Shown: positions 11,486-26,812 of the stretch, piece after piece
Layout of the letters: every line of letters starts with the position of its first letter
Position numbering within the stretch: the first letter of the stretch is position 1
NCBI GenBank assembly: GCA_937919085.1
Contig: CALFRN010000328.1
Location: 1-62,994, forward strand
Length of the DNA: 62,994 nt
Source: an uncultured Reyranella sp.
GTDB taxonomy: Bacteria; Pseudomonadota; Alphaproteobacteria; Reyranellales; Reyranellaceae
Reading direction: 5' to 3'
Translations under genes and position numbers: made by a program
The notes under the pieces: generated by a model
The model's database searches: none
Told to the model about the DNA's origin: nothing
The model's input: the letters and a program-made list of their open reading frames with translations, nothing else

Positions 11486-12382
11486 TCAGGCCCACCCCTT
11501 GGTGCGAAGATGAAGCTTCACCGCGTCGAGGAAGGCACCGGCCAGCCGCGACGGCTCGCGGTGGCGCGGCCGCATGGCGCGGAACAGATATCGGATGCGC
11601 GGTTCGAACGGCACGATGGCGACGCCCTCACCCAGGTAGTCGCGCGCCGTGAACGGCTCGACGATCGACACGCCGAGCCCGCGCGCCACCAGGGCGCAGG
11701 CCTCGGCCGAGGAATAGACGTCGATCTCCATCCGGCGCTCGATGCGCTCCTGCTCGAAGGCGGCATCGATCAGGTGGCGCATGCGGCCGTCGAGCGGGAA
11801 CGACACGAAGCGCTCGCCACGCAGGTCGACCGGCCGGATCAGCTTACGCCGCGCCAGCCGGTGGTCGCGCGGCACCACGCAGACCGCGAAGGTGCGGCTC
11901 AGCTCCTCGGCGATCATTGCCGGATGTTCGAACGGCATCATCGAGAAGCCGAGGTCGATCTGCTGGTCGATCATCTTCTGGTTGACGTAGGTCGAGCTGC
12001 GCACATGGAAGGCGATGTGGGCCTTGGCATGGTGCCTGAGAAACCCCGCCATGACGTCGGGCAGCACGGCGCGGCCCAGCGCCGGCGTCGAATAGATCTG
12101 GAGGTCACCGACCAGCCGTTCGCGGATGTCGCGCGCCACCTGGGTGATCTGGTCGAGGCTGTGATAGAGCCGCGTCACCTCAGCCGCCAGCAGCCGCGCC
12201 TCAGTGGTCGGCGCCAGCCGCCGCTTGATCCGGGTGAACAGCGGATAGCCGATCTCGAACTCGAGGCCGGCCAGGATCTTGCTCACCGCCGGCTGCGACA
12301 CGCCCAGCCGCTCGGCCGCCGCCGTCACCGTGCCGCGTTCCATAATGGCGCGAAAGGCTTCGAGCTGGCGCGACGTAATCAT
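11486..12382 (-). CDS. LysR family transcriptional regulator
   Basis: A LysR-type regulator of about 298 residues. The N-terminal winged helix-turn-helix is ITSRQLEAFRAIMERGTVTA AAERLGVSQPAVSKILAGLE in outline (residues 3-40), followed by a periplasmic-binding-like effector domain. Start ATG at 12382 has GAGG five bases upstream; the frame stays open to 12439. It is divergent from the FAD oxidoreductase at 12454, with about 70 bases between, the usual arrangement for a LysR gene and its target. Inference: it controls that oxidase. Confidence 0.93.
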   Translation of the reverse strand: MITSRQLEAFRAIMERGTVTAAAERLGVSQPAVSKILAGLEFEIGYPLFTRIKRRLAPTTEARLLAAEVTRLYHSLDQITQVARDIRERLVGDLQIYSTPALGRAVLPDVMAGFLRHHAKAHIAFHVRSSTYVNQKMIDQQIDLGFSMMPFEHPAMIAEELSRTFAVCVVPRDHRLARRKLIRPVDLRGERFVSFPLDGRMRHLIDAAFEQERIERRMEIDVYSSAEACALVARGLGVSIVEPFTARDYLGEGVAIVPFEPRIRYLFRAMRPRHREPSRLAGAFLDAVKLHLRTKGWA

Positions 12383-18679: not shown

Positions 18680-19078
18680 ATGAATTTCGACGCGATCGCT
18701 GCGACATGGGCGCCACGCCTGCTCAGTGTGCTGCGCATCATGTCGGGCCTGCTGTTCCTGCAGCACGGCACCGCCAAGCACCTGAAATTTCCTTCGGTGC
18801 CGATGTTCTCCAAGCTCGAGCCGGTGTCGCTGCTGGGCGCCGCCGGTGTGATCGAGATCGTGGGCGGCGTTCTGCTGATTCTCGGCCTGTTCACGCGCAC
18901 GACGGCATTCGTGCTGTCGGGCCTGATGGCCGTCGCCTACTTCATCGCCCACGCGCCGCGCGGCTTCTATCCGATCCTCAATGCCGGCGAACTGGCGGCA
19001 CTCTATTGCTTCGTCTTCCTCTACATCGCCGCCGCCGGACCCGGCCCGTGGAGCTACGACGCGATGCGCAAGAGGTAG
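18680..19078 (+). CDS. DoxX family membrane protein
   Basis: A 132-residue protein with four hydrophobic helices. DoxX hallmarks are the N-terminal RIMSGLLFLQHGTAKHL, the EIVGGVLLILGLFTRTTAFVLSGLMAVAYF stretch (outline) and the NAGELAALYCFVFLYIAAAG C-terminal helix. DoxX-like proteins are small inner-membrane proteins, some linked to redox or quinone processes; the exact role here is unknown. It begins a tight run with two Lin0512 genes (gaps of 5 and 14 bases). Confidence 0.9.
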   Translation: MNFDAIAATWAPRLLSVLRIMSGLLFLQHGTAKHLKFPSVPMFSKLEPVSLLGAAGVIEIVGGVLLILGLFTRTTAFVLSGLMAVAYFIAHAPRGFYPILNAGELAALYCFVFLYIAAAGPGPWSYDAMRKR

Positions 19079-19083
19079 CGGCA

Positions 19084-19422
19084 ATGGCACTCAAACGTCT
19101 GGCCCTCGAGATCGGGATGGGCACCGACATCCGCGGCGGCGACTACACCAAGGCCGCGGTGCGCGCTCTCAGGGATGCGCTGTGGCACAACTCGCTGACC
19201 GTCGCCACGGCGCTCGGCAGGTCGAGCGACGACATGCGGGTAGAGGTGCTCATCGGCGTGCCGCGGCCAGCCGAAGTCGACAAGGCCCAGGTGCTGGCGG
19301 TGCTGCCGCACGGTACCGGCACGGTGAGCGTGGTCGAGGGCGGGCTGGAAATCGCCAACGAAGCCGGCACGGACAAGACGGTGATCGCCCAGGCGGCCGC
19401 AATCGTCCGGCTCGATATTTGA
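19084..19422 (+). CDS. Lin0512 family protein (first tandem copy)
   Basis: A 112-residue protein starting MALKRLALEIGMGTDIRGGD, matching the Lin0512 family pattern (EIGMGxDxxGxDYTKAAxRALxDAxxxNSL). Conserved pieces also include VEVLIGVPRPAEVD and VLAVLPHGTGTVSVVEGGLEI. The family is widespread and small; it is sometimes linked to fatty-acid binding, but no activity is established. The gene lies 5 bases after DoxX. Confidence 0.88.
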   Translation: MALKRLALEIGMGTDIRGGDYTKAAVRALRDALWHNSLTVATALGRSSDDMRVEVLIGVPRPAEVDKAQVLAVLPHGTGTVSVVEGGLEIANEAGTDKTVIAQAAAIVRLDI

Positions 19423-19436
19423 GTGGGGGACAACGC

Positions 19437-19781
19437 ATGCCTGCCAGACGCGTCATCCTAGAACTCGGTACCGGCAACGACCTGCACGGCGGCGACTACA
19501 CCAAGGCCGCCCTGCGCGCGGTCCAGGACGCCCTGCACCACAGCTCGCTCGCCATGATCCGCACGCTCGGGGTCAATTCCAAGACCGGCATGTTCGTCGA
19601 TGTCACCATCGGCGTGCAGCAGCCCGACAAGGTCGACCTTGAAAAGGTCAGGGCTTCGCTGCCACACGGCATCGTCACGGTGACCGCGGTCAAGGGCGGC
19701 CTCGACGTACCCGACCAGGAGGGCAACGACGTCGCGGTGATCGCCAGTGCCGCCGTCGCGGTGCGGCTGGAACTCCCCTAG
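19437..19781 (+). CDS. Lin0512 family protein (second tandem copy)
   Basis: A 114-residue paralogue of the preceding gene: MPARRVILELGTGNDLHGGD, YTKAALRAVQDALHHSSL, VDVTIGVQQPDKVD and SLPHGIVTVTAVKGGLDV all align with it. Lin0512 proteins usually assemble as homomers; a side-by-side pair suggests a heteromer in which two subunits form the ring, and this is inference. ATG at 19437 follows a GGGGGA-like site. Confidence 0.87.
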   Translation: MPARRVILELGTGNDLHGGDYTKAALRAVQDALHHSSLAMIRTLGVNSKTGMFVDVTIGVQQPDKVDLEKVRASLPHGIVTVTAVKGGLDVPDQEGNDVAVIASAAVAVRLELP

Positions 19782-19808: not shown

Positions 19809-20048
19809 CTAGCTCCGCGCCCGACGGCCGTAGAGCAGAAGCCCCGCTCCGGCCACGATGGCGATGACGCCGGCGATGCTCGGAATGGGAATCGAGCGCT
19901 GCTGGTCGGCGGTTACCTTGAGCGGGCCGGCATCGACGATCACCGTCTTCTCGGTAAAGGAGATGTTGGTGATGATAAGCCCTGCAATGCCGATCGCGAT
20001 CAGCAGGACGCCCAGAATGGCGATCGGTTTCATGTTGGCCGGTTTCAT
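19809..20048 (-). CDS. Small two-helix membrane protein
   Basis: A 79-residue protein starting MKPANMKPIAILG (ATG at 20048; a second ATG at 20033). It has two hydrophobic helices: AILGVLLIAIGIAGLII and IAGVIAIVAGAGLLLYG, joined by a charged periplasmic-type loop (KTVIVDAGPLKVTADQQRS), and ends in RRARS. The topology matches DUF3185-like small membrane proteins, but I am not certain of the family. It lies 75 bases after the selenoprotein stop, possibly in the same message. Confidence 0.65.
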   Translation of the reverse strand: MKPANMKPIAILGVLLIAIGIAGLIITNISFTEKTVIVDAGPLKVTADQQRSIPIPSIAGVIAIVAGAGLLLYGRRARS

Positions 20049-20123
20049 GTCGGCACGTCCCCCCGTGTTGCAAGCCTGTTTCAGGAAACGCCGCACGGGG
20101 CAGAAAGTTGCAGGCGGAAAGCT

Positions 20124-20645
20124 CTATTTCAGCAATAGCTTGCAGCCCTGCTCGATGGCGGTCCTCGCCATCGCGCGCAGGCCGTCGTCGGTGGCGCTGC
20201 TCACGGGATGGCCGATCCTGGCAAAGCCGTAGTCGGGCATCCCCAGAACGCGGCTCATCATCTCGGCCGCGCTCACGAAGCGGGCGGTCATCACGCTGAA
20301 GGCGGGAACGCCGAGGCGTTCAGCAGTCACTGAGTCGTGCAGACTGCACGATGAACAGCTGCCTCAATCCCCGAGGCCGGAAACGACAGCATCCCAGCCC
20401 TTGATCTCGGCTACGATGCGGGCGTCGGCCGGCGCGCTGTAGTTCGACTTGGTGCGGCTCACCACCTGGGCTACGCCATACTCTTCGCGCAGCATGCGGT
20501 CGAGATGCAGGAAGAACCCCTTGGTGCCTTCCTTGCCGTTGGAGATGAAGCCGACGGTTTTGCCCTCGAGCGTGTCGAGGCGCGGGGCAAGCTTGCCCGC
20601 GGGCGGCGCCTTCTCGGCGGTCGGATCGAGTACACGGAAAATCAT
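20124..20645 (-). CDS. UGSC family selenoprotein (in-frame TGA = selenocysteine)
   Basis: A single 173-residue gene interrupted only by an in-frame TGA at 20366-20364. Reading that TGA as Sec gives U94-G95-S96-C97, the motif that names the UGSC (seleno)protein family, followed by another Cys at 100. The flanks are family-like: DAVVSGLGD before it and SLHDSVTAERLGVPAF after it. The N-terminal half starts MIFRVLDPTAEKA (ATG at 20645, GAGGA seven bases before) and contains LEGKTVGFISNGKEGTKGFFLHL; the C-terminal half has RFVSAAEMMSRVLGMPDYGFARIGHPVSS. A perfect hairpin with loop 19 bases past the TGA fits a bacterial SECIS (separate entry). A normal annotation would split this into a 93-residue and a 68-residue frame. 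The U-x-x-C arrangement suggests a thiol/selenol redox centre, but the reaction is unknown. Ten bases separate it from the upstream partner gene. Confidence 0.93.
20335..20351 (-). promoter_or_regulatory. Bacterial SECIS element (selenocysteine insertion hairpin)
   Basis: On the coding (minus) strand the 17 bases TCGTGCA-GTC-TGCACGA form a perfect 7-bp stem, or 6 bp with an AGUCU loop. There are 19 bases between the TGA and the loop, inside the 16-37 base window of the bacterial SECIS consensus, and the loop opens with G. AGUCU is close to the AGGUCU loop of the E. coli fdhF element. It lies within the coding frame, as bacterial SECIS elements do. Confidence 0.85.
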
Positions 20646-20655
20646 GGCGGGGTCC

Positions 20656-21711
20656 TCACTTCTTGGGGGGGTCGCAGTCGACGCAGGCGCCGACCGGCAG
20701 GGTCACGGCATGGCTCTTGTGGCCGAGCCACGGCGGGATGATCGCGCCGAAGCCGCCGGCCGGCCCACCGGCCGCGACCACCAGAAGCTGGTCGGGCCGC
20801 TCCATCGCCGGATAGACGCTGTCGCCGCGGTCGCGCACGACCGCGCCCTTGCCAACCTCGGCCCATTCGCGGCGGTGAATGCGCGCCCGCTCGTGGATGA
20901 AGTCGGCGATGTCGGTCTTGGTCCAGCCCGCGGCCTGCAGATGCTCGCGCAACTGCTTGGGGACAATGATGGCGTAGTTGCCGGGATAGATCGAATAGTG
21001 CCGCAGGTTGGCGCGCATCTCGGCGGCGAACGTCTCGAGGATCTCCTTAGGTTCGGTCGTCCATTCGTTCATGATCTGGCGCGGCGCACCGGCAGCCATC
21101 ACCGTAACGGCCGATGCCGCCCGCTCAATGCCGCGCTGCTCGTGCAGCGGTAACCAGGACGAATCCTCTTCATCCTCGGCCAGGCAAAAGCTGAACTTGC
21201 CGGGGTGGCCCAGCGTCGAACGGTCGATGACGCCTGGCCGTACATCCATGAGATTGATCAGGCAGAGCCGGACTGCACGACCTATGACTGCCGTGGCGCG
21301 GTCGCTGTTGCCCAGTGCATTGAAGGTGCCGCTGGTGCCCAGCTCCAGCCGGATCGGACCGTTCAGCACCACGAGGACGGCGCAGCCGCCGGTGCTGGCG
21401 GTGGCACCATGCATCAGGAACTCGTCCTGCATCATCGCGGTCCAGGCCGTCAGGACGACCGGGAAATGCATCGGCAGGCAGCCCGCCATCACGGCATTGA
21501 TCGCCAGCTTTTCGGCCGTGATCGCCAGCCCGCGCACCGGCTCGATGCCGATCAGCTGGTCCGGCGGCATCATCGCCCACTCGAGACAGGCTTCGACGGA
21601 TTCAGCCGTCGGCGGTACGATCGGCAGACCATCGGTCCAGCCGCTGCTGTGGTACAGCTCCTGAACGGCCGAGATGTCGTTCGCGTCGTAGATCCTGGAA
21701 GCCAATTGCAC
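20656..21711 (-). CDS. Uncharacterised protein, partner of the UGSC selenoprotein
   Basis: A 351-residue protein starting from GTG at 21711 (MQLASRIYDAND), with an AGAGGG site seven bases upstream. Visible pieces: SSGWTDGLPIVPPTAESVE near the N-terminus, AITAEKLAINAVMAGCLP, the Gly-rich STGGCAVLVVLNGPIRLELG and AAGGPAGGFGAIIPPWLG. It ends in CVDCDPPKK, a C343-x-x-C346 motif at the very tail. There is no signal peptide or membrane helix. It lies 10 bases before the selenoprotein, so the two are one operon and probably one system. I do not recognise a characterised family. The terminal CxxC could exchange electrons with the Sec/Cys centre (inference). Confidence 0.8.
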   Translation of the reverse strand: MQLASRIYDANDISAVQELYHSSGWTDGLPIVPPTAESVEACLEWAMMPPDQLIGIEPVRGLAITAEKLAINAVMAGCLPMHFPVVLTAWTAMMQDEFLMHGATASTGGCAVLVVLNGPIRLELGTSGTFNALGNSDRATAVIGRAVRLCLINLMDVRPGVIDRSTLGHPGKFSFCLAEDEEDSSWLPLHEQRGIERAASAVTVMAAGAPRQIMNEWTTEPKEILETFAAEMRANLRHYSIYPGNYAIIVPKQLREHLQAAGWTKTDIADFIHERARIHRREWAEVGKGAVVRDRGDSVYPAMERPDQLLVVAAGGPAGGFGAIIPPWLGHKSHAVTLPVGACVDCDPPKK

Positions 21712-21798: not shown

Positions 21799-22728
21799 TC
21801 AAACCCGGCCGGGCTTGGGCCAGGTCCGGCGGGTGAGCGCCATGAACCCCAGCGTTGCCGGCGAAGGTTCGCGCTCGCGCAGCTTGATCAGTCCCAACCG
21901 TCGCGATAGCCGGGGTTCGCTGATCGAAATGGCGCGCAGGTCTCGGCCGAGAAAGGAGACGGTGGCGCCGGTCGGCACGATGGCGAGTCCGACGCCGGCA
22001 CGCACGCAGCCCATCAGCGTGGCGAATTGGCTCACCGTCACCACTTGGCGGAGCGACAGTCCGGCCGTCGAGGCCGCGGCGTCGATGGTCCGGCGTGTCC
22101 GTGAATCGGACGGCAGTGCCACCATCGGTTCGTCCCTGAGTTCACCGAGCGACACGCTCCGCCGCGCCGCCAGCCGGTGGCGTTTGGGCACAACGACGCT
22201 GAAAGTCTCGCGCTGCAGCGGAAAGCCTTCGATCGCATCCGGCAGGTCGTCGACATAGGAAAGGCCGAGATCGGCCACGCCGCTTCGTACGTCCTCCAGA
22301 ACGCTGCCGTGCACGCCTTCGCGGACATGGATTTCCATTCCCGGACGGTCGACGCGGTAGGCGGCCAGCAACACCGGCAGGATGCCGCTGGCAACCGACA
22401 TGATGCTCGAAAGAATGAGCCGGCCGCGCCGTTCCTCTGCGACCTCGCGGAGACTGCGCACGGTAAGACGCAAGTCGTTCAGCATGCGCTCGGCAACCGC
22501 CACAAACTCCCGGCCGGCCTGCGTGATCTGGACATGCCGCGTGCTGCGCTCGAACAGCCGCACGCCGAGCGCCGCCTCGATGCGCTTGATGGTCCGCGTC
22601 AACGCCGGCTGCGAGATCCGCAGGCGCGCCGAGGCCGCGATGAAGCTGCCATACTCGGCCACCGCGAGAACGGCTTCGAGCTGGCGGGCGCTGAGGTCCG
22701 GCAGTGCAGATGTCGCCATGGCGCTCAT
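21799..22728 (-). CDS. LysR family transcriptional regulator
   Basis: A 309-residue LysR regulator. The HTH is LSARQLEAVLAVAEYGSFIA followed by ASARLRISQPALTRTIKRIE (residues about 12-52); the effector domain follows, with a VVVPKRHRLAARR segment. ATG candidates are 22728 and 22719. It is divergent from the CoA-transferase at 22815 with 86 bases between, so that is the likely target. The selenoprotein operon starts 87 bases downstream of its stop and could also be read from this message. Confidence 0.93.
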   Translation of the reverse strand: MSAMATSALPDLSARQLEAVLAVAEYGSFIAASARLRISQPALTRTIKRIEAALGVRLFERSTRHVQITQAGREFVAVAERMLNDLRLTVRSLREVAEERRGRLILSSIMSVASGILPVLLAAYRVDRPGMEIHVREGVHGSVLEDVRSGVADLGLSYVDDLPDAIEGFPLQRETFSVVVPKRHRLAARRSVSLGELRDEPMVALPSDSRTRRTIDAAASTAGLSLRQVVTVSQFATLMGCVRAGVGLAIVPTGATVSFLGRDLRAISISEPRLSRRLGLIKLREREPSPATLGFMALTRRTWPKPGRV

Positions 22729-22814: not shown

Positions 22815-24026
22815 ATGGTCCTGCCACTTCAAACGGTCCGCGTGCTCGACCTCACCCGCGTGCTCGCCGGCCCGTGGGCGACGCAGCTACTCGCCGATCT
22901 CGGCGCCGAGGTGATCAAGGTCGAACGCCCAGGCAGCGGCGACGACACACGCGGCTGGGGCCCTCCCTTCGTCGACGGCGACGGCAAGGCGGGCGGTGTC
23001 AGCGCCTACTTCCTCTGCACCAACCGCGGCAAGCGCTCGATCGCCGTCGATTTCGAAAGCGAGGAGGGCCGCTCGCTGATCGCAGATCTCGCCGCCAAGT
23101 GCGATGTCCTGGTCGAGAACTTCAAGGTCGGCAGCTTGGCCAAACTCGGGCTCGACCATGCGACCCTGGCCAAGCGCAACCCTGGCCTCGTCTATTGCTC
23201 GATCACCGGCTTTGGCCAGACCGGCCCGCACCGCTTCCGCGCCGGCTACGACCTGATGGTCCAGGCCATGGGCGGACTGATGAGCGTGACCGGCGAACCC
23301 GACGGACAGCCGATGAAGGTGGGCGTGGCCACCGCGGACCTCCTGACCGGCCTCTACGCCAGCAACGCGATCCTGGCGGCGCTCATGGAACGGCGCGACA
23401 GCGGCCTCGGCCAGCACATCGATCTCGCGCTGCTCGATGTGCAAATTGCTACCCTGGTAAACCAGGCGTCGGGCTATCTCGCCTCCGGCAAGGTGCCTGG
23501 ACGCCACGGCAACGCCCATCCAAACATTGTGCCCTACCAGTCATTCATGACAAGGGACGGTCACGTCGTGATCGCCGTGGGCAACGACATGCAGTTCACC
23601 CGACTCGCCGAGGTGCTGGGACGTCCGGATCTCGCCACCGATCCGCGCTTTGCCACAAACGGCGGCCGTGTTGCCATGCGTCAGGAACTGCTCGACATCA
23701 TTGTGCCGCTGATCGCAGGTCGCGCCTCGGCGGATATCCTGGCGGCCCTCGACCGGGTCAATATCCCGTCCGCGCCTATCAACAGTCTCGACCAAGTCTT
23801 TGCCGATCCACAGATCGCGGCGCGTGGGCTAGTGGTCGAACCCGAAGCCGGATCGACCGGCAAGCGTGCACCGGTGGTCGGCAATCCCATTCATTTCTCC
23901 CGCACACCTATCGACTCCGCCAAGCCGGCGCCGTTGCTCGGCGCCGACGCCGACGATGTATTGCGCACCGTGCTCGGCAAATCGGAGGCCGAGATCGGCG
24001 GTCTCAGGGAACGCGGTATAATCTAG
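22815..24026 (+). CDS. CaiB/BaiF family CoA-transferase (class III)
   Basis: A 403-residue type III CoA-transferase. The N-terminal VRVLDLTRVLAGPWATQLLADLGAEVIKVE pattern (outline) and GDDTRGWGPPF are hallmarks. D146 in RAGYDLMVQAMGG is the expected acyl-anhydride nucleophile. The C-terminal half has NIVPYQSF and ADPQIAARGLV. These enzymes move CoA between organic acids, as in carnitine, oxalate or bile-acid metabolism. ATG at 22815 follows GAGGGGAG; the frame is open further upstream without family sequence. It is divergent from the LysR gene, and its TAG overlaps the next gene's TAG in CTAG. Confidence 0.93.
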   Translation: MVLPLQTVRVLDLTRVLAGPWATQLLADLGAEVIKVERPGSGDDTRGWGPPFVDGDGKAGGVSAYFLCTNRGKRSIAVDFESEEGRSLIADLAAKCDVLVENFKVGSLAKLGLDHATLAKRNPGLVYCSITGFGQTGPHRFRAGYDLMVQAMGGLMSVTGEPDGQPMKVGVATADLLTGLYASNAILAALMERRDSGLGQHIDLALLDVQIATLVNQASGYLASGKVPGRHGNAHPNIVPYQSFMTRDGHVVIAVGNDMQFTRLAEVLGRPDLATDPRFATNGGRVAMRQELLDIIVPLIAGRASADILAALDRVNIPSAPINSLDQVFADPQIAARGLVVEPEAGSTGKRAPVVGNPIHFSRTPIDSAKPAPLLGADADDVLRTVLGKSEAEIGGLRERGII

Positions 24027-25102
24027 GCTGCCAGCATCCGATCGTGATTGCGCTCACGAAGGATCGGCATCACCCATTTGCCGAAGCGCTCGGCTTCCTC
24101 GTCGTGCAGGTAGCCCGACAGGCAGAACGAGTGGCAGCCGAGGTCGATGAATTTCTGCAGCGTGTCGGCGCACTGTTCCGGATCGCCGACGATGGCGATA
24201 CCGGCGCCCGGCCGGACTTGGGTGATGCCTGTCCACAGATGCGGCTCGATGGTCTCGCCGATCGCTGCCAATTCGCGCACGCGGCGATTGGCTTCCGACG
24301 TGGCGAAGCGCTCCTTCACGAAGGCCTTCTGGGCTTCGCTGGCATGGGCCACCAGCCCATGCGCAAAATCCCAGGCCTCTTTCTCGGTCGGCCTGCACAC
24401 AACCTGCAGGCGCATGCCGAAGCCGATGTCGTTCTCGCGGCCGTGGCGCGCTGCCATCCCCTTGATCTCGGCCATGTTGGCGCGAATGCGTTCGTAGGTA
24501 TCGCCCCAGAACAGATGGACATCGGAGTGCTTGGCCGATATCTCCCAGGCCTGCCTGGAACCGCCGCCGAGATAGAAGCGCGGATAGGGCTGCTGCAGCG
24601 GATAGGGCCGGATCTGCGCGCCTTTCAGCTGATGGAACTTGCCGTCGAACGTCACGGGGCCGCGGGTGGTCCACAGCGCCTTCAGGATCGAGACTTCCTC
24701 GTCCATGATCTCGTAGCGTTCCTCCTTGCCCCACTTGATGCCCTCGGAGGCATTCTCGGCCTCGCTCTGGCCGGCAATCAGGTTGATGCAGATGCGGCCA
24801 CCGGAGAGCTGATCGAAAGTCGAGATCATCTTGGCCAGCAGCACCGGGTTGATGTAGCTGGGCCTCGCCGCCACCAGCATGCGCATCGACTTCGATCGCG
24901 CCACCATCATGGCGCTGGAAATCCACGCTTCCCAGCAGGCGGTCTGCACCGGCACCAGCATGTATTCGAAGCCCGCCGTCTCGGCGGCAGCGACGATCTT
25001 GTCGAACAGCGGCAGGGACGGCACCACCTGCGCACTTGCCAACCCATAGGCCGTGGTGTCGCCGGCGGTTGGCAGGAACCAGCCGAATTCCAGTCTGCGC
25101 AT
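24023..25102 (-). CDS. LLM class flavin-dependent monooxygenase, SsuD-like
   Basis: A 359-residue alkanesulfonate-monooxygenase-like protein: GWFLPTAGDTTAYG, FEYMLVPVQTACWEAWI, ISTFDQLSGGRICINLIAGQS, YPRFYLGGGSRQAWEISAKHSDVHLFWGD (outline) and VGDPEQCADTLQKFIDLG. SsuD-type enzymes use FMNH2 and oxygen to oxidise organosulfonates. No flavin reductase or sulfonate transporter is adjacent. Convergent with the CoA-transferase (4-base overlap). Confidence 0.92.
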   Translation of the reverse strand: MRRLEFGWFLPTAGDTTAYGLASAQVVPSLPLFDKIVAAAETAGFEYMLVPVQTACWEAWISSAMMVARSKSMRMLVAARPSYINPVLLAKMISTFDQLSGGRICINLIAGQSEAENASEGIKWGKEERYEIMDEEVSILKALWTTRGPVTFDGKFHQLKGAQIRPYPLQQPYPRFYLGGGSRQAWEISAKHSDVHLFWGDTYERIRANMAEIKGMAARHGRENDIGFGMRLQVVCRPTEKEAWDFAHGLVAHASEAQKAFVKERFATSEANRRVRELAAIGETIEPHLWTGITQVRPGAGIAIVGDPEQCADTLQKFIDLGCHSFCLSGYLHDEEAERFGKWVMPILRERNHDRMLAA

Positions 25103-25198: not shown

Positions 25199-26812
25199 AT
25201 GTCACAGCACGGCAAGCGTCCGACAATCTCATCGCGGCACGGCATGGTGGCAGCCGCACATCCCCTGGCGGCGGCGGCGGGCGCACGCGTGCTCGGCAAC
25301 GGCGGCACGGCGTTCGACGCCGCGGCGGCGACAGCGGCGGCCCTCAATGTGGTCGAGCCCTACATGTCAGGCCTGTCCGGCTGTGGCATCGCGACATGCT
25401 ATGTCGCGAAGGAGAAGCGCGTGCGATCGCTTGAGTTCATGACGCCGATCCCACGGAAATTCCCTCTCGACAGGCTCAGCAGCCGCAATCAACTCCAGCG
25501 CGGTGCCCTTGCCGTGGGCGCACCCGGCAACCTCGCCGGCTGGTGCGAACTGGTGAATGCCTATGGCCGCAAGAAACTGCCTGAACTGTTTGCGCCCGCG
25601 ATCGCGATCGCCCGCGACGGCTTCGGCCTGATCGAATTCAACGCCGAGGAGATCTCCGGTGTCACGTCGGAGCTCAGAGGCCACGCCAAACTTTATCCCG
25701 AATGGTCGCGGGTCTATCTTGAGGGTATCGGTGGCGGCCGGCCGGTGCTTGGTGCCGTCCTGAAACAGCCCGACCTCGCCGCAACGCTCGAAGCGCTGGC
25801 CGCCGAAGGGCCAAGACTGATGTATGGCGGCGCCCTCGGCAAGAAACTGCTGGAGCGGCTCACGGAGCTGGGTGGCTGCCTTACCATGGACGACCTGATG
25901 GAGGTCAAAGTGGCATGGGTCGATCCAGTATCGGTCACCTATCGCGGACGGACCCTGCACGTGCCGCCGCCGCCCTGCGAAGCCTTCCAGGTTCTGTTGA
26001 CCTTGCGGATCCTCGAGGGTTTCGACCTGGCCGGGATGCCACGCAACGGCGTCGAGCATGTCGATACCGTGCTGCGCGCCATTCGCATCGCCGCCGGCGT
26101 GCGCATCAACAACGGCGTGCCATCCAGGCAGAAGTTGGCCGAACTCCTCTCGGACACCCATGTCGAGGGCCTGCGGGCCCGTGTGCGCGACGACAAGCCG
26201 ATCACTGGCCCGACCGAACAATGGACGGGACCGCCGGCCGATGGCTCCAGCGAAAGCCACACGACGTCGTTCTCGATTGTCGACAGCGACGGCAACATGG
26301 TTTGCCTGACGCAAAGTCTCGGCAGCGTGTTCGGCTCGGGCATCGTCGTGCCCGGCACCGGCCTGTGCCTCAACAATTTCTTCTATTGGGCCGATGTGAC
26401 GCCCGAGAGCCCCAACCGCGTGAAGCCGGGCGACATACTCCCGGTCTGCATTGCACCCTCGATCGTGACGCAGGACGACAGACCCGTCCTGGCACTCGGC
26501 ACACCCGGCAGTTACGGCATCCTGCAGACCCAGCCGCAGGCCTTCGTTCAGCACGTCGATTTCGGCCTGCCACTACAGCAGGCAATCGAAGCGCCGCGCG
26601 GCCGCCTGACCGACGGCCGCGCAGTGTTGCTCGAGGCCCGCATCGAAGCCGATGTCCAGACCGAACTGCGCAAGCGCGGCCACGATGTCCAGGGCGGCCC
26701 CGACTGGACGATGAGGGTGGGTGGCATGCAGGGCGTGGCGGTCGACCCGGAGACCGGCGTGTTCACCGGCGGCGCCGATCCACGTCGCGACGGCTATTGC
26801 GTGCCGGCCTGA
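25199..26812 (+). CDS. Gamma-glutamyltransferase family protein (cytoplasmic form)
   Basis: A 537-residue N-terminal nucleophile hydrolase. Hallmarks: RHGMVAAAHPLAAAAGARVL, AVGAPGNLAGWCEL, VTYRGRTLHVPPPP and the auto-cleavage site before T355 in ESHTTSFSIVDSDGN, equivalent to the TTHYSVVD site of GGT. The later GSVFGSGIVVPGTGLCLNN and GTPGSYGILQTQPQ fit the small subunit. No signal peptide is present, unlike classical periplasmic GGT, so it likely acts in the cytoplasm on an amide or acyl-amino compound. AGAGGG precedes the ATG. Confidence 0.92.
   Translation: MSQHGKRPTISSRHGMVAAAHPLAAAAGARVLGNGGTAFDAAAATAAALNVVEPYMSGLSGCGIATCYVAKEKRVRSLEFMTPIPRKFPLDRLSSRNQLQRGALAVGAPGNLAGWCELVNAYGRKKLPELFAPAIAIARDGFGLIEFNAEEISGVTSELRGHAKLYPEWSRVYLEGIGGGRPVLGAVLKQPDLAATLEALAAEGPRLMYGGALGKKLLERLTELGGCLTMDDLMEVKVAWVDPVSVTYRGRTLHVPPPPCEAFQVLLTLRILEGFDLAGMPRNGVEHVDTVLRAIRIAAGVRINNGVPSRQKLAELLSDTHVEGLRARVRDDKPITGPTEQWTGPPADGSSESHTTSFSIVDSDGNMVCLTQSLGSVFGSGIVVPGTGLCLNNFFYWADVTPESPNRVKPGDILPVCIAPSIVTQDDRPVLALGTPGSYGILQTQPQAFVQHVDFGLPLQQAIEAPRGRLTDGRAVLLEARIEADVQTELRKRGHDVQGGPDWTMRVGGMQGVAVDPETGVFTGGADPRRDGYCVPA

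Follow-up and report, generated by a model that had tools for sequence, protein, structure and literature searches.

A recoded UGSC-family selenoprotein gene from an uncultured Reyranella and a proposed distant relationship of its family to selenoprotein B of glycine and D-proline reductases

We have analysed a stretch of 62,994 nucleotides from an uncultured Reyranella sp. (GenBank assembly GCA_937919085.1, contig CALFRN010000328.1, positions 1 to 62,994), referred to as the window, with a focus on a gene whose reading frame is interrupted by a single TGA. Sequence comparison identifies the segment from 20645 to 20124 on the minus strand as a genuine gene for a UGSC-family selenoprotein, with a product that is predicted to contain selenocysteine (Sec). 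The family has been described before, and this gene adds a new member to it. Together with the product of the gene directly upstream, here termed the partner, the recoded UGSC protein, whose family appears to be distantly related to selenoprotein B, probably forms a two-component, dithiol-coupled Sec reductase. This proposal centers on the following features:

20124..20645, minus strand: UGSC selenoprotein gene, 173 residues with one in-frame TGA, defined by translation with TGA as U and by its match to Pfam PF24696
20364..20366, minus strand: TGA encoding Sec94 of the UGSC motif (Sec94-x-x-Cys97); Sec94, Gly95 and Cys97 are invariant in an alignment of 50 sequences
20335..20351, minus strand: putative bacterial selenocysteine insertion sequence (SECIS)-like hairpin of 7 base pairs with the loop GUC, nucleotides +13 to +29 after the UGA, defined by pairing above a codon-shuffle null and by compensatory changes
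20656..21711, minus strand: partner gene of 351 residues, not assigned to any family in Pfam or NCBIfam, which immediately precedes the UGSC gene with a gap of 10 nucleotides

The gene starts with an ATG at 20645, contains the TGA at 20366-20364 as codon 94 and closes with a TAA ending at 20124. Its frame harbors this single internal stop and no frameshift, with the context GLGD-U-GSCSSCSLHDSVTAERLG and the nucleotides TGA-GGC-AGC-TGT, which place a cysteine at position +3 of the motif (Sec94-Gly-Ser-Cys97). A preliminary description of the locus, which was silent on the strand, had reported the same arrangement and had anticipated that a gene finder would truncate the protein; the list of open reading frames obtained with translation table 11 indeed splits the gene into a frame of 93 residues and a second one of 68 residues beginning at an internal GTG. 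The family identity proposed at that stage has equally held. The read-through product matches PF24696 over its full length, on both sides of the TGA, with a score of 162.7 bits at a cut-off of 25 (E-value 1.2e-47), and since the match spans the TGA with this score we exclude that it has arisen by chance. The NCBIfam equivalog model NF041046 assigns 115.3 bits to the window protein, just under its curated cut-off of 125, and 27 bits to the 93-residue piece alone; among the four other UGSC proteins of the genome one passes this cut-off with 143.5 bits and three fail with 118.6, 110.9 and 122.9 bits. We thus classify the predicted protein as a member of the UGSC family by Pfam, while withholding the status of an NCBIfam equivalog.

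The genome containing the window (4.9 Mb in 525 contigs, 99.81% complete) encodes the Sec machinery that had been predicted from the codon, with all components found above their cut-offs. The genes selA (553.3 bits) and selB (451.6 bits) are located on contig C315, where they are adjoined by the gene for tRNA-Sec (selC, anticodon tca), and selD (294.9 bits) is found on contig C90. Each of the five UGSC genes of this genome carries exactly one TGA, positioned at the Sec codon. Of 96 confirmed orthologous loci in named genomes, a large number of which bear the label Reyranella, the best 80 were fetched, and all 80 have a TGA at this place. A motif script scored 79 of these orthologues; the remaining one (L047), whose frame extends beyond the locus and was therefore missed, was added separately. 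The codon was retained throughout even though the search pattern at the Sec site had been written for Cys codons and was hence biased towards Cys forms. Homologues thus continue past the TGA instead of ending there, and a sequencing error, which had been considered as a source of the codon, is excluded by these orthologues and by all five copies of the genome. Cys forms of the family, whose existence had been mentioned in the preliminary description, were encountered in the class survey described below.

This survey, in which at most eight candidates per genome were scored so that copy numbers are lower bounds, identified UGSC genes in 38 of 385 genomes of the class and selB above cut-off in 54, with the overlap of both sets counted by eye from two survey tables. 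At least one UGSC gene of the TGA form is present in 35 of the 38 genomes, and 33 of these 35 contain selB above cut-off; the other two are a genome that is 77% complete (G011) and one with a short selB match at a contig end (G338). Among the three genomes with exclusively non-TGA forms, one contains selB and two do not contain it above cut-off, and selB was detected in 20 of 347 genomes lacking UGSC. A UGSC gene is found within 7 kb of selB in no fewer than four genomes (G057, G091, G123 and G341). The TGA is kept in 96 of 100 UGSC class members and is followed by conserved sequence. On this comparative basis, the recoding of UGA as selenocysteine is well supported.

Further support comes from the putative hairpin following the codon, which has the sequence UCGUGCA-GUC-UGCACGA and is separated from the UGA by 12 nucleotides. 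In 100 distinct sequences, selected from 115 rows, the mean number of pairs formed is 6.85 out of seven, and all seven are formed in 85 sequences. Conversely, 500 shuffles, which preserve each protein and draw their codons from the usage of the partner genes, gave on average 4.57 pairs (maximum 4.99) and 8.1 sequences with all seven pairs (maximum 17). As the test set consists mostly of close orthologues, the shuffle test overstates the independence of the sequences, whereas contrasts between clades depend less on kinship. In the SSWS clade, where a tryptophan replaces Cys100, the UGG pairs with UCC instead of the UGC/GCA pairing found elsewhere, and all seven pairs are formed in 12 of 12 distinct sequences. 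The same compensatory change is observed in the TSWC clade (four distinct sequences, mean of 6 pairs). The four Cys forms show a decayed hairpin with a mean of 3.0 pairs, and three of them retain part of the protein context. Remaining sequences (62 distinct) form on average 6.48 pairs, with all seven found in 34, and the fusion clades form 3.8; in the latter, a candidate alternative stem is formed at the same place by 13 of the 15 distinct sequences. The hairpin is apparent only by comparison, as folding of the single sequence in 91 nucleotides around the UGA gave no significant signal (z-score of -0.45) and neither the window nor an 801-base stretch gave a match in Rfam. The element is conserved beyond codon choice, as expected for a SECIS just downstream of a UGA.

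We then turn to the relationship of the family. All 50 aligned UGSC members match the UGSC model in a comparison with NCBIfam at E-values up to 1. The next most common models are glycine reductase selenoprotein B (TIGR01917, 18 of 50, best E-value 0.0011) and sarcosine reductase GrdF (10 of 50, best E-value 1.4e-4), followed by TIGR01918, GrdH and PrdB with two members each, and unrelated families never exceed two. Ten divergent UGSC members were compared with the PrdB and GrdB models, where nine match at E-values up to 1 and seven at 0.01 or below (best 3.8e-5). The Sec of the mapped members falls on the Sec of the model or a few positions from it (at about position 148 in PrdB and 350 in GrdF). 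In profile-profile comparisons with 16 PrdB-like sequences, selected by a motif from 22 PF07355 matches, the divergent clade of UGSC-partner fusions gave a P-value of 1.3e-8 at a probability of 95.6, and the combination of this clade with the window-type alignment A1 a P-value of 7.5e-6 at a probability of 84. The alignments A1 (50 sequences) and A2 (26 sequences) comprise the sequences that remained after filters for length, stops and 82% identity. After masking the Sec and Cys columns, the P-value of the fusion clade is 5e-7 and its probability 92.5. Reversed templates gave P-values of 0.16-0.54 (0.54 for the fusion clade), and among 35 unrelated families used as controls the best P-value was 0.031 with the fusion clade and 0.11 with A1. 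Out of 39 control families, four had been set aside because the UGSC domain itself is encoded in overlapping frames of some members (15 of 40, 6 of 35, 7 of 22 and 2 of 12). The resulting register between UGSC and PrdB-like proteins aligns the Sec, the cysteine at +3, a glutamate at +15 and a proline at +20. The UGSC family thus appears to be distantly related to the GrdB/PrdB group of selenoprotein B, as a compact branch with Sec aligned on Sec.

The Reyranella genome also contains a gene resembling a PrdB-like selenoprotein, whose product has the motif UPACTRAV and is considerably extended at its C-terminus (locus L154, PF07355 match at 11830-12309 on the plus strand). Its Sec codon is found at nucleotide 1987 of the locus, its score of 101.5 bits against TIGR04483 is under the cut-off of 300, and its contig (C120) holds a UGSC gene as well. 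In four Alphaproteobacteria, PrdB-like genes are located within about 6 kb of selB (G053:C48, G067:C80, G034:C4 and G102:C5), and the PrdB-like group may therefore be tied to Sec use in these organisms.

The second component of the proposed enzyme would be the partner. The survey contained 101 UGSC places, 100 of which have a profile hit, the one left out being a fragment that stops short of the Sec position. In 96 of these 100 loci, a partner domain is found on the same strand within 400 nucleotides of UGSC, 58 times before and 38 times after it; of the other four loci, one contains a partner at 887 nucleotides and three have none in the fetched stretch. True fusions, with UGSC as first part of a single open frame without intervening stop, account for 21 of the 100 loci. 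Calls of fusions with upstream partners were discarded as artefacts of reading through the TGA that serves as stop codon of the partner itself. Two cysteines of the partner, Cys78 and Cys176, are invariant in 26 sequences. No family in Pfam or NCBIfam was matched above cut-off by 26 partner sequences, and the best hit of a partner profile in the sequences of the PDB has an E-value of 1.7. The partner is succeeded by another one in all 13 SSWS loci and in 9 of the 21 fusions, which suggests that the paired partners of these loci would assemble into a heteromeric pair.

Two further arrangements were observed. On contig C302 of the Reyranella genome (L106:7235-9237, minus strand), two tandem partners are located behind a single UGSC and a thioredoxin reductase (TrxB)-like flavoprotein. 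In a genome without selB above cut-off, a UGSC-partner fusion of the Cys form (L140:2673-4709, plus strand) has an N-terminus that, judged by eye, resembles a signal peptide, and this protein is possibly an exported version.

An involvement of dithiols is suggested by modules encoded within or next to the cassettes. In 24 of the 100 loci, the partner is extended at its N-terminus by a segment containing CPxC and a cis-proline motif of the Val-Pro-Thr type, a count that is based on these two motifs, with one extension compared with the PDB and ten with Pfam. The extension of the cassette on contig C120 retrieved thioredoxins from the PDB (best E-value 0.0032). At E-values up to 1, eight of the ten matched thioredoxin-like families in Pfam and two matched nothing; the best hit (8.1e-5) is to TraF, whose C-terminal half is thioredoxin-like. 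A gene for a thioredoxin-reductase-like flavoprotein, in the same orientation and at most 3 kb away, is present in 14 of the 100 loci, with a CxxCDG motif in 13 of the 14. The representative on contig C302 matches Pyr_redox_2 and contains the sequence CAACDG, in the gene order flavoprotein, UGSC, partner, partner. As both sets are disjoint, a thioredoxin-like or reductase-like module is present at 38 of the 100 loci.

UGSC was modelled with AlphaFold2 from 50 sequences. The model, with a predicted local distance difference test (pLDDT) score of 92.6, shows five alternations of strand and helix in a Rossmann- or flavodoxin-like arrangement, with Sec94 positioned immediately before the helix that succeeds the third strand. 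Its structural matches are diffuse alpha/beta folds without an outstanding functional relative. The best match in VIA is a chain of the methyl-coenzyme M reductase activation complex (8s7v_H; Z-score 10.9, root-mean-square deviation (rmsd) 3.1, 132 aligned residues), and the best match in Foldseek has an E-value of 2.5e-4 and a template modelling (TM) score of 0.45. No structures of GrdB or PrdB are found among the 50 matches listed for either program. A search of PDB sequences with the UGSC profile gave as best hit the gamma chain of an ATP synthase (E-value 0.015), which we take as chance, and the same search with a PrdB-like protein gave zero hits at an E-value of 1. The model of the partner (pLDDT 87.3) has weak structural matches.

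Our preferred interpretation as a two-component Sec reductase would involve the following steps. SelB and tRNA-Sec would decode the UGA as selenocysteine, aided by the hairpin at 20351-20335. The partner (20656-21711) would bind and activate a small organic substrate, whose carbon would then be attacked by the selenolate of Sec94 under displacement of a heteroatom group (N, S, O or halide). Cys97 would resolve the Se-C bond to form a selenenylsulfide, and thioredoxin or a similar dithiol would re-reduce the Sec94/Cys97 pair. We infer the attack by Sec94 and the resolution by Cys97 from the homology to glycine and D-proline reductase, for which a review describes a selenolate thought to attack the substrate carbon and a thiol that cuts the Se-C bond to yield a selenenylsulfide (PMC10298544). 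The preliminary description regarded the reaction of the UGSC family as not established, and this still applies, as the reaction type outlined here is a proposal.

The family shares with PrdB (TIGR04483) and with GrdB, GrdF and GrdH (TIGR01917, TIGR01918, NF040794, NF040795; PF07355) the Sec-x-x-Cys motif and the alignment of the Sec. Both groups also have in common a multi-component organization, several copies per genome and possibly a coupling to dithiols, which for UGSC is suggested by the modules at 38 loci and not by the window. Unlike these proteins, UGSC is compact with its 173 residues, scores far under the cut-offs and has a partner that is no recognisable PrdA or GrdE and is lengthened by a thioredoxin-like part in a subset of cassettes, and the hosts found here are Alphaproteobacteria and Gammaproteobacteria.

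Several observations weigh against this interpretation. When compared alone with NCBIfam at E-values up to 1, the window protein retrieves the UGSC model and neither GrdB nor PrdB. Similarly, the alignment A1 by itself matches the PrdB-like profile weakly (P-value 0.0019, probability 14; P-value 0.0021 with masked Sec and Cys columns), and the strong match is obtained only when the divergent fusion clade links the two. The best UGSC members reach 20.6 bits against GrdF, at a curated cut-off of 800, and 23.2 bits against PrdB, at a cut-off of 300, and we do not assign the family to PF07355, TIGR01917, TIGR01918 or TIGR04483. None of the 26 partner sequences matches PrdA or GrdE in Pfam or NCBIfam, to which they may nevertheless be distantly related, and since they match no other family either, pyruvoyl chemistry is unsupported in this case. 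The thioredoxin-like extensions are divergent, with none clearly above the Pfam cut-off in the ten that were scanned, and the window locus contains neither a TrxB-like gene nor such an extension. Finally, the group to which the Reyranella host belongs is mostly aerobic. Conversely, most bacterial selenoenzymes of this sort are assigned to anaerobic metabolism, and glycine reductase uses thioredoxin whereas D-proline reductase does not, both according to the same review (PMC10298544).

Among the alternatives, UGSC could act as a general thiol-redox or antioxidant selenoenzyme, whose UxxC pair would react with disulphides or peroxides, maybe on a thioredoxin-like fold, and for which the partner would be a client or scaffold. 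The invariance of Sec94 and Cys97 in 50 aligned sequences is compatible with such a role, and a 2026 review places UGSC beside peroxiredoxin-, thioredoxin- and glutaredoxin-like families (PMC13188914). A thioredoxin-like fold has also been suggested in the literature on UGSC, but our model does not support it, as its topology is Rossmann- or flavodoxin-like and its listed structural matches are of the same type. The kinship in sequence is to GrdB and PrdB, and a near-constant partner combined with at least five to eight copies in several genomes fits substrate-specific enzymes better, so that we regard this alternative as unlikely.

Less probable still is a non-reductive lyase, hydratase or isomerase, with Sec as nucleophile or metal ligand and a partner that is distantly related to class-I fumarases. 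The top match of the partner model in Foldseek is indeed the alpha chain of a two-subunit class-I fumarase (E-value 6.2e-4), and the partner contains the two invariant cysteines mentioned above, but the TM score of 0.25 and the comparison in VIA (Z-score 4.9, rmsd 5.3, 191 aligned residues) reveal a poor structural correspondence, and the thioredoxin-like and thioredoxin-reductase-like modules imply an input of electrons. That the UGA is a true stop, in a pseudogene, due to a sequencing error or in a gene for a functional product of 93 residues, is rejected as extremely improbable in light of the TGA conservation with conserved sequence beyond it, the conserved hairpin and the complete Sec machinery, although a standard gene finder stops at the codon and the cut-off of NF041046 is narrowly missed.

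The UGSC family has been known since 2008, and the Global Ocean Sampling (GOS) survey describes a UGSC-containing protein and its fusion to a domain termed 'Unknown_1' (PMC2398784), which may be the partner domain found here. The excerpts of reviews from 2022 and 2026 that were available list UGSC without a function (PMC9312934, PMC13188914). With the family as defined by PF24696, NF041046 and the GOS survey (PMC2398784), the window protein shares a match over its whole length, the UGSC motif, the Sec codon and the occurrence of Sec and Cys forms, while remaining just under the equivalog cut-off. A related precedent is found in FarB and FarE of Cloacibacillus, a GrdB-like Sec protein and its second component that have been assigned to the cleavage of the C-F bond in fluoroacetate (PMC10838667). 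This pair provides a precedent for substrate-specific copies, but is a close relative of GrdB and GrdE from an anaerobe, and we liken it to UGSC by description and not by sequence. In the literature searched, which omits most subscription journals, we did not find UGSC described as a relative of selenoprotein B with a near-constant partner and thioredoxin modules. It is quite possible, and we advance this as a tentative generalization, that the UGSC-partner cassettes are unrecognised and widespread Sec enzymes of probably oxygen-respiring Proteobacteria, which would catalyze the reductive cleavage of carbon-heteroatom bonds with a new activating partner that replaces the pyruvoyl subunit, often with built-in thioredoxin modules, and which would have diversified within single genomes into as many as eight or more copies with distinct substrates. 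The kinship to the reductase group, the partner and the thioredoxin modules would turn the orphan UGSC protein into a defined two-component enzyme with an assayable type of reaction, and, if true, selenium chemistry known from anaerobes would extend into Alphaproteobacteria and Gammaproteobacteria.

The pair in the window is surrounded by the following genes, given as context, whose homologues were counted anywhere within 48 orthologous loci with full flanks:

21799..22728, minus strand: LysR-type regulator (Pfam LysR_substrate and HTH_1), upstream of the pair; homologue in 28 of 48 loci
24023..25102, minus strand: luciferase-like flavin monooxygenase (Pfam PF00296, 197 bits); homologue in 34 of 48 loci
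25199..26812, plus strand: gamma-glutamyltranspeptidase-like gene (Pfam PF01019, 361 bits); homologue in 31 of 48 loci
19809-20096, minus strand: open reading frame of 95 residues immediately downstream of UGSC, which by eye resembles a membrane protein; homologue in 32 of 48 loci

A family III CoA-transferase is also among the neighbours. From its gene content, this neighbourhood looks catabolic, which would be compatible with substrate-specific copies. Two similar small genes in the frames 18706-19422 and 18981-19781, both on the plus strand, share a GGDYTKAA core and look, by eye, like tandem paralogues of a single family.
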